NCBI GenBank assembly: GCA_001899305.1
Contig: MKWL01000020.1
Coordinates: 62,001-126,000, forward strand
Direction: 5' to 3'
Source of the DNA: Thiobacillus sp. 0-1251
Lineage (GTDB): Bacteria > Pseudomonadota > Gammaproteobacteria > Burkholderiales > Thiobacillaceae
Length of the DNA stretch: 64,000 nt
In this document: piece by piece, positions 40,936 through 43,926 of the stretch
Layout of the letters: every line of letters starts with the position of its first letter
How positions within the stretch are numbered: position 1 is the first letter of the stretch
Notes under the pieces: generated by a model
Database searches by the model: none
Told to the model about the DNA's origin: nothing
Seen by the model: the letters and a program-made list of their open reading frames with translations, nothing else
Made by a program: the position numbers and the translations under genes

Positions 40936-43926
40936 TCAGGCCAGCTTGGCTTGGACCCAGGGCCGCACCGATGCCAGTGCAGCGGGCAGGTGCCCGGGTT
41001 CGCTGCCGCCGGCCATCGCCATGTCCGGCTTGCCCCCGCCCTTGCCGCCGACCTGGGTGGCGACGAAGTTCACCAGTTCGCCGGCCTTGATCTTGCCGGT
41101 AACGTCGGGGGTTACCGCAGCGATCAGGCTGACCTTGCCGTCGGCGACCGTGCCCAGCACCAGCGCGCAGGATTTCAGCTTGTCGCGTAGCTTGTCGGCG
41201 GTTTCGCGCAGCGCCTTGGCGTCGACGCCGTCAAGCTGCGCCGCCAGAACACGCACGCCGTTGACGTCGATGGCCTGCTGCACCAGGTCGTCGCCCTGGC
41301 TGGAAGCGAGCTTCGATTTCAGGCGATCGAGTTCCTTTTCCAGCGCCCGGCTGTGTTCCATCAGCTGCGTCACGCGTTCGGCCGCCTCGGCCGGGGTGGC
41401 CTTGACCATTTGCGCAATCGCGCCAAGGTTCTTTTCGGTTTCGCCGAGGTAGGCCAGCACTCCGGTACCGGTGGTCGCTTCGACCCGGCGGATGCCGGCC
41501 GCGACGCCGGTTTCCAGCAGGATCTTGAAGGCGCCGATGTCGCCGGTGCGCGCCACGTGGGTGCCGCCGCACAGTTCGCGCGAGCTGCCGATGTCGAGCA
41601 CCCGCACTTCGTCACCGTATTTTTCGCCGAACAGCATCATGGCGCCAGTTTTCTGCGCTTCCTCGATCGGCATCACCCTCGCCTGGGTTGCCGTATTGGC
41701 GAGGATTTCGGCGTTGACGCGCGCTTCCACCTCGCGGATCTGCGCGTCGGTCATCGGATTCGGCTGCACGAAGTCGAAGCGGGTCTTGTCGGCGTCCACC
41801 AGCGAGCCCTTCTGCTGCACGTGCTCGCCGAGCACTTCGCGCAGCGCCTTGTGCATCAGGTGAGTGACCGAGTGATTGCGCATGGTGCGCGCGCGGTTGT
41901 CCTCGTCGACGCGCGCGAGCACGGCGTCGCCGACCACCAGCGAGCCGGTCTTCACCACGCCGTGATGACCGAACACCTGCGCCTGGATTTTCTGCGTGTC
42001 CTCGACTTCGAATGCCCCGTTCGTGCTCTGCAGCACGCCGCAGTCGCCGGCTTGGCCGCCGGATTCGGCGTAGAAGGGCGTGTGGTCGAGCACCACCACG
42101 CCGAGCTCGCCTTCCTTCAGCTCGTTGACGGTGCTGCCGTCGCGATACAGCGCAAGCACCGTGCCGTCGTGCGTCAGCGTGTCGTAGCCGTGGAAGGTGG
42201 TTGCTTCGCCCGAATACTCCAGTCCGGCACCGAGCTTGAACTTGCCGGCGGCGCGCGCCTGAGCTTTTTGTTGTTCCATGGCGCGATCAAAGCCCGTGAT
42301 ATCGACCTCGATTCCATGTTCTCGGCAAATGTCCGAGGTAAGGTCGAGCGGAAAGCCATAGGTGTCGTGCAGCATGAAAGCTGTGTTCCCATAGAGCGGA
42401 AGATCACTTTCAAGAACTACTTCAAGTTTCAGGAAGCTTTTTAACTCTGGAGTCAGGTCTTTAAAAGCAGACTTAAGGTGCTCCTCAATAGAGGAACGAC
42501 TTTGAGTTTTTGGAATAACGCCGATAAGAGTCAGAGTTCCACTCTTGCCACTTGCTTTCGCAAAGTTCTGAATCTCTTTTCTTAATGAAAGAAGATTTGA
42601 GAGTAGAGCTTTAATGTCAGTTGCGTTATTCAGTAACTTAACTTCGACAAAAATTTCCTCTTTTTTTGTGTGGAAGAGGCCGTCTACGTGCTGACGTAAC
42701 CCGCTTCTATCGTTTAGTCCAACTTCTTCAAAAAACTCGTCATCGTTGCTAAATTTTCCTCCGAACCATTGGATTGCTCTCTCTTTTGGAGAGATCGCTC
42801 GCTCCAATATTTTCATTCCGCTGTCGATGGTCTCGAAGAAGCGTTCCTCTTCTTGGCGCAGTATGTCCATGACGCGCGTCTGCGCCTTGACGAGTTCAGG
42901 GTAGGCCGCGCCCATCGCTGTGACCAGGTCCGGCACGATACGGTTGAAGAAGGCTGCACGTGCGCCGAGCTTGTAGCCATGACGGATGGCGCGGCGGATG
43001 ATGCGGCGCAGCACGTAGCCGCGCCCCTCGTTGCCCGGGATGACGCCGTCGACGATGAGGAAGGAACAGGCGCGGATGTGGTCGGCGATGACCTTGAGCG
43101 AGTTATTGGCAAGATCGCTCGTGTTCGTCTCGCGCGCGGCGGCGGCGATCAGCGCCTGGAACAGGTCGATCTCGTAGTTGGAGTGCACGTGCTGCATCAC
43201 CGCTGAAATGCGTTCGAGCCCCATGCCGGTGTCGACGCTGGGCTTGGGCAGCGGGTGCATGGTGCCCGATTCGTCGCGGTTGAACTGCATGAACACGTTG
43301 TTCCAGATCTCGATGTAGCGGTCGCCGTCTTCCTCGGGGCTTCCCGGAGGCCCACCATAGATGCCTTCGCCGTGGTCGTAGAAGATCTCGGTGCAAGGGC
43401 CGCAGGGGCCGGTGTCGCCCATCGCCCAGAAGTTGTCGCTGGCGTAGCGGGCGCCCTTGTTGTCGCCGATGCGGACAATGCGTTCCTTGGGTACGCCGAT
43501 GTCGTTGTGCCAGATGTCGTAGGCCTCGTCGTCCTCGGCGTAGACCGTGACCCACAGCTTCTCGGTCGGCAGCTTCAGCACCGTGGTGAGGTATTCCCAG
43601 GCGTACTTGATGGCGTCCTGCTTGAAATAGTCGCCGAAGCTGAAGTTGCCCAGCATCTCGAAGAAGGTGTGGTGGCGCGCGGTGTAGCCGACGTTCTCGA
43701 GGTCGTTGTGCTTGCCGCCGGCGCGCACGCAGCGCTGCGACGACACCGCGCGGGTATAGCTACGCTTGTCCTGCCCGGTGAACACATCCTTGAACTGCAC
43801 CATGCCGGCGTTGGTGAACAGCAGGGTGGGGTCGTTGCCCGGCACCAATGGGCTGGAGGGGACGACGGTGTGGCCCTTGGAGGCGAAGAAATCGAGGAAG
43901 CTCTGGCGGATGGCGCTGCTTTTCAT
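40936..43926 (-). CDS. alaS: Alanyl-tRNA synthetase with an in-frame domain insertion
   Basis: The enzyme charges tRNA-Ala and edits Ser/Gly mischarging. The product is 996 residues; E. coli AlaRS has 876. The class II catalytic domain comes first (about 1-250; [29 protein letters not shown]). The tRNA-recognition part is interrupted after L-E-R-A-I (374-378) by about 125 foreign residues (379-503) and resumes at [14 protein letters not shown]. The editing site (H685, H689, C786, H790) and C-Ala domain ([10 protein letters not shown]) are intact. The reading frame is open throughout, so it is probably functional. The ATG at 43926 is the family start. Confidence 0.95.
42418..42792 (-). other. 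Insertion inside alaS, AT-rich, possible PD-(D/E)XK nuclease-like fold
   Basis: This segment encodes residues 379-503 of AlaRS. By hand count, 143 of 360 bases at 42421-42780 are G or C (about 40%), against a clearly GC-rich remainder. The encoded stretch contains V-D-G-L-F (D415) and, 12 residues later, V-E-V-K (E428, K430). The predicted order is helix, strand, strand (E-E-I-F-V-E-V-K), long helix (437-460), strand (T-L-T-L-I-G-V-I) and helix. This matches the core of PD-(D/E)XK nucleases. DNA just downstream (42301-42420) is also lower in GC (60 of 120). The nuclease relation is inferred from motifs only. Confidence 0.6.

Follow-up and report, generated by a model that had tools for sequence, protein, structure and literature searches.

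Why does an essential enzyme carry a foreign domain with the look of a nuclease, and has that domain travelled as a selfish element? The question is raised by alaS, the alanyl-tRNA synthetase (AlaRS) gene, in a 64,000-nt stretch of Thiobacillus sp. 0-1251 (contig MKWL01000020.1; hereafter the window, within which all coordinates are counted). Our data suggest, tentatively, that the extra domain has a PD-(D/E)XK nuclease fold, is translated and left unspliced in a permissive loop of AlaRS, and has been exchanged horizontally, with a homing-endonuclease-like selfish element as its likeliest origin.

A guest domain in alanyl-tRNA synthetase

alaS lies at 40936..43926 on the minus strand as one uninterrupted frame of 996 codons and a stop, with its ATG at 43926. 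The product matches the alanine--tRNA ligase family TIGR00344 at 1013 bits, and its catalytic, editing and DHHA1 parts are all matched (tRNA-synt_2c, tRNA_SAD, DHHA1), as expected of a member of the AlaRS family. It is the sole copy found; a PF01411 profile search detected no second alaS in the 3.66-megabase source genome. The enzyme has about 124 extra residues, all in one loop. Its span from EEERFF to DTYGFP is 168 residues, compared with 44 in 22 of the 23 other same-genus genomes readable by script and 117 in the remaining one, G034. Seven same-genus sequences (L006, L014, L016, L020, L024, L026 and L029) fell outside the script's pattern; six of their genomes align without an insert, and the seventh (G003) gives one uninterrupted match.

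The insert (42391..42798, minus strand) replaces the usual short loop in frame, at a site corresponding to about residues 381-388 of E. coli AlaRS (alignment to 3HXU). The variable length of this loop suggests that it is exposed. The inserted DNA is AT-rich, with a GC content of 0.40 and a third-position GC content (GC3) of 0.36 versus 0.87 in the rest of alaS. Such a shift is more frequent among inserts than expected by chance: in comparisons limited to inserted alleles with a gene GC3 of at least 0.5, insert GC3 is below gene GC3 in 24 of 26 fetched alleles (p = 3e-7, although the alleles are not all independent). The loops of 54 empty alleles show no GC3 shift (p = 0.19). An earlier note on this DNA had placed the core of the insert at 42418-42792 (minus strand) and described a low-GC guest domain within the frame of an otherwise intact AlaRS; the composition, the single frame, the intact catalytic and editing parts and the search for another alaS all bear this description out.

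By prediction, the insert adopts a PD-(D/E)XK nuclease fold. An AlphaFold model built from two sequences has the order of elements typical of this class, with an alpha-beta-beta-beta-alpha-beta core (predicted local distance difference test score 72; predicted template modelling score 0.67). Structural matches of the model are mainly PD-(D/E)XK proteins, at Z scores where common arrangements are not excluded. The window insert contains a complete D-x12-E-x-K triad with canonical spacing, encoded on the minus strand: D415 within V-D-G (codon 42682..42684) is the putative catalytic aspartate, and E428 (42643..42645) and K430 (42637..42639), which lie on a strand in the model, are the putative acidic residue and lysine of the (D/E)XK motif. 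Both the triad and the nuclease-like fold had been proposed from the translation, and the model supports that proposal.

Sequence searches with the window insert gave best matches of E = 0.066 in Pfam and E = 0.07 in NCBIfam, neither convincing, and nothing in the PDB at E values up to 10. One of 10 inserts scanned, that of the probable relative in G1001, matches the PADLOC family REase_II (E = 8e-4, 17.1 bits). No PADLOC family was assigned to the window insert itself, and the anti-phage or synthetase-monitoring role that had been raised for it is not supported.

We found no sign that the insert is removed from the gene product. Neither strand of 42000-43100 has an Rfam match at E values up to 1, group I and II introns included. 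The whole protein has five Pfam matches at E values up to 10, none of them an intein family; HMMER filters can lose weak matches in this search, which did not include a dedicated intein search. The longest other open reading frame fully inside the insert is 35 codons, and thus there is no out-of-frame endonuclease of the ShiLan type discussed below. Given that no intron, no intein family and no long hidden frame were found, we expect the enzyme to retain the domain.

Occupied and empty sites across the order

We surveyed genome sets with a 92-residue AlaRS query lacking the insert. Genomes with a single match were mostly left unopened, and the counts are therefore lower bounds; outside the order, inserts were judged from the number of matches, such that an insert with its upstream half below threshold would escape. 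In the family of the window, 106 of 117 genomes were matched and 104 of these have no insert. Only the source genome and G034 carry one, and the two inserts differ. G008 and G961, of the same family, gave two matches each, yet have no insert. Across the order, 381 of 399 genomes were matched, and at least 20 of the 381 (source genome included) have a loop of 45 residues or more. Outside the order, 352 genomes of the phylum were matched and no insert was detected in them; the single genome with two matches, G652, had these on different contigs. Long loops are thus enriched in the order relative to the rest of the phylum (Fisher p = 2e-6). In the family of G1001, here called Nitrosomonadaceae, 116 genomes were matched and 14 of them have longer loops; the count for family f288 is 6 of 21. 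Among 102 fetched alleles, the loop measures 45 to 164 residues in 37 that are inserted and 33 to 39 residues in those that are empty.

The window insert is one of many at a hot AlaRS loop in this order, and is not a general feature of the order. As in homing elements, the same site of a conserved gene is occupied or empty among close relatives.

Several further observations concern this loop and its host gene. In f288 (L099, L100, L109 and L160-L171), loop lengths form a ladder of 35-38, 45, 65, 85 and 120 residues that is suited to studying decay in place. Genus g297 (L093-L097, L130 and L131), which we take to be Neisseria-like, has an insert of another kind, about 100-110 residues long, in 5 of 7 fetched members; the ratio of nonsynonymous to synonymous substitution rates (dN/dS) of these inserts is 0.14-0.27 in the three pairs tested. 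The loop of L108 (G890) holds a short insert, the GC-rich PLPPGEGRGVRES, which we take to resemble a dispersed repeat of the repetitive extragenic palindromic type read as protein. Elsewhere in AlaRS, L014/L043 (G013) has a separate insertion of about 25 residues near residue 263, whose antisense reading resembles a palindromic repeat. The AlaRS match at G056:C335:1455-2921 contains one in-frame TAA, reflecting an assembly error, a frameshift or a broken gene. G1256 and G869 each have two uninterrupted AlaRS matches on different contigs, either duplicate alaS genes or mixed bins.

Probable relatives of the insert and signs of exchange

Twelve Nitrosomonadaceae inserts at the same site resemble the window insert. 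They are 110 to 139 residues long, span three genera of that family, and have an [FV]DG motif before a strand (FNR or FDR in two of the 12). In shuffle comparisons with the window insert, G1147, G1237, G1001 and G1253 score z = 5.2, 4.0, 3.5 and 3.4, while four inserts of other kinds score -1.9 to 0.3. Because four of the 12 reach z values of 3.4-5.2 and the site and the [FV]D motif are shared, the window insert and these 12 probably form one family, which apart from the window was seen only in the family of G1001. Within it, one of two subgroups of relatives is a good hhalign match to G1257/G1255 (E = 8e-6), and the aspartate of the triad is present in 12 of the 13 inserts (asparagine in G1257). 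Kinship to the window insert was not detectable for the g297 inserts or for the kind found in G034, G768 and G1250. The inserts of L034 (G034, of the window's genus) and L110 (G768, of another family) are themselves alike (z = 4.4 and 5.6), and are perhaps a second kind of cassette moving between families.

We compared synonymous differences among identical residues in the insert and in the host gene for ten pairs of alleles. In two pairs, synonymous differences are lower in the insert than in the host gene: 22/85 versus 272/560 in G1237-G1245 (p = 1e-4) and 12/112 versus 180/621 in G1257-G1255 (p = 2e-5). In G1237-G1230 they are higher, with 39/79 in the insert and 177/617 in the host gene (p = 4e-4). 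Some relatives with an incomplete triad nonetheless look exchanged. An insert history independent of the host gene is thus seen in relatives only; the window copy has no close relative. Point estimates of insert dN/dS are 0.08 to 0.54 in nine pairs, given without a significance test, and the tenth pair is saturated. Values below 1 suggest that the frame has been kept as protein.

Divergent tracts beside the insert

The window insert sits in a locally divergent patch of AlaRS comprising 17 residues upstream (42802..42852, minus strand) and 45 residues downstream (42256..42390, minus strand), beyond which the protein is again like that of its own genus (0.93-0.95). Compared with the nearest genus-mate, 18 of 62 flank residues differ, versus 43 of 683 elsewhere (p = 3e-7). 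This test was applied to 11 of the 37 fetched inserted alleles; alleles of g563, the Neisseria-like genus and f288 and other single-genome alleles were left out. A flank excess is also present in G1237, G1230, G1245 and G1253 (p = 8e-7 to 4e-10) and, more weakly, in G1250 (p = 0.003) and G1255 (p = 0.001). None of the 28 empty controls shows an excess, their ratios being at most 1.2. Flanks are normal in G1241, whose insert is the largest, so an insert alone does not cause divergence.

The downstream tract of G1253 is 0.87 identical to that of G918, which belongs to another family and itself has a small insert, while over the following 40 residues G1253 has an identity of 0.95 to its own genus. 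In a tree of the tracts, from which six g563 alleles were omitted as long branches, the window groups with G1237, G1230, G1245 and G1253 (93/87); in the tree of the rest of the gene, the window and each of these four fall with their own genus. Transfer of foreign alaS sequence around the insert is well supported by these comparisons for the four relatives. For the window it is plausible, and fast local change could have left a similar patch.

Discussion

How might such a domain spread? The target of a nuclease of this fold would be, or would once have been, alaS without the insert, cut at the loop site or close to it. Repair of the break from an occupied allele would copy the domain in, along with short donor stretches of alaS. 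A permissive loop that tolerates the domain would make intein or intron unnecessary, and the active site would decay after invasion. The fixed site, patchy distribution, AT-rich DNA, flank tracts, host-independent exchange, nuclease fold and lost active-site residues are jointly what a homing element would leave. On these grounds we hold, as a working interpretation, that the domain descends from a homing-endonuclease-like selfish element. Nuclease-driven transfer and the lack of splicing are what we infer from the alleles compared, and the small AT-rich inserts in other genera may be remnants. Given its complete D...ExK triad, the window copy may be active, or recently active, as a nuclease.

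An intron, an intein or a free-standing location is generally considered necessary for a homing element to leave its host gene unharmed. The boldest form of our proposal departs from this: a spliceless homing endonuclease, in which a PD-(D/E)XK selfish nuclease sits in frame in an essential gene, is never removed, crosses families with co-converted flanks and decays in place by way of inactive domains into short stubs rich in AT, while the copy in the window would still be armed. We regard this full scenario as doubtful.

A number of results weigh against a homing origin. The whole triad is found only in the window copy; none of the 12 probable relatives keeps all three residues, as G1237, G1230, G1245 and G1253 have D and E without K and the remainder lack E. 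Foldseek found no PDB match to the model at E < 0.001. Kinship within the family is faint in places: the other eight relatives have shuffle z scores of only 2.6 down to -1.0 against the window insert, hhalign of that insert with the two relative subgroups is weak (E = 0.16 and 0.0085), the match between the subgroups is also weak (E = 0.025), and inserts of no detectable kinship occupy the same loop. In seven of the ten allele pairs, of which two are of the Neisseria-like kind, insert and host gene do not differ significantly in synonymous divergence. Flank excess is not significant in G1257 (p = 0.065), G1252 (0.13), G034 (0.36) or G1241 (0.90). When f288 is added to the tract tree, the window and the four relatives lose their own group and fall into one of 20 rows with all 15 f288 rows (94/89). 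The ordinary grouping survives approximately unbiased tests on the 62 columns (p = 0.096; 0.42 for the window's genus), and the 14 private tract residues of the window name no donor, as each of five groups shares 4 to 6 of them.

The incomplete triad in 12 of 13 inserts keeps ordinary recombination at a permissive loop in close contention. The guest would then be a nuclease-fold domain, mostly non-catalytic, with a neutral or mild structural or partner-binding role, spread by natural homologous recombination of alaS. We consider this a serious, if somewhat less probable, account. It accommodates a triad that is broken in nearly all copies while dN/dS stays below 1, and a loop that hosts other inserts, including the repeat-like one of G890; recombination alone also suffices for exchange of flanks. 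However, it leaves unexplained why short divergent tracts lie at five inserted alleles and at none of the 28 empty ones, and why the triad of the window copy is intact. The earlier suggestion of a selfish nuclease or its relic gains from the patchy distribution, the divergent or foreign-looking flanks and the discordant synonymous divergence among relatives.

Alternatively, a phage protein, toxin or inhibitor that binds the AlaRS loop could select any change there, and inserts and foreign flanks would be escape variants under frequency-dependent selection. Such remodelling fits the variety of inserts, several unrelated-looking large kinds and many small ones, that share a single site and occur mostly in one order. 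We nevertheless think it unlikely: insert-free alleles are the large majority in all surveys, a shared nuclease fold and motif are not predicted, and no agent is known to us that targets this loop, no search aimed at one having been made. The DNA might also be foreign and AT-rich, with a frame open by chance, captured by accident and devoid of function and mobility. This fits the repeat-like insert and some of the small AT-rich ones, but is very improbable for a domain with a compact predicted fold, an intact D-x12-E-x-K, dN/dS below 1 in relatives, and probable relatives at the same site in three genera of another family.

If the homing origin is correct, the notion of a selfish element would widen to include a domain of nuclease fold that is kept in an essential enzyme and yet moves between families. 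Invasion, decay and loss would be laid out in one gene across a bacterial order, and would illustrate one route by which enzymes acquire extra domains. Cleavage and homing are open to direct test, given the window copy and the insert-free alleles that occur naturally in its genus.

Among the matches listed, no title in the open PMC literature concerns an AlaRS insert of this kind in these bacteria. Of the known elements, inteins that contain a homing endonuclease domain are similar in being in frame, at a fixed site of a conserved gene, and horizontally spread. They differ in that no intein family is among the Pfam matches of the whole AlaRS, a comparison made without a dedicated intein search. 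XisH, Mrr-like and type II restriction proteins, which we take to belong to the PD-(D/E)XK class, differ from the window insert in that it has no convincing sequence match.

I-Ssp6803I, a PD-(D/E)XK homing endonuclease, is of the same catalytic fold class as predicted for the alaS insert (PMC3943268). That review describes enzymes of its type as group I homing endonucleases, unlike the alaS insert, at which Rfam finds no intron; it also lists PD-(D/E)xK among the homing families and ties co-conversion of flanks to homing. Invasion, inactivation and removal are described in PMC13405050. A recA insertion (PMC4334540) was set aside as a comparison.

The earlier note could name no known system of this kind, but precedents of a kind exist. 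The nearest is an actinobacteriophage DNA methylase that hosts both the ShiLan domain and a lone LAGLIDADG insertion (PMC11855218). The latter has no detectable intein or intron, and the authors infer vertical inheritance for it. ShiLan differs from the window insert, as its HNH endonuclease is hidden out of frame in a phage gene that the authors call not essential (PMC11855218). The alaS insert, in contrast, places a nuclease-like fold of the PD-(D/E)XK class in the frame of its host, a cellular housekeeping gene.
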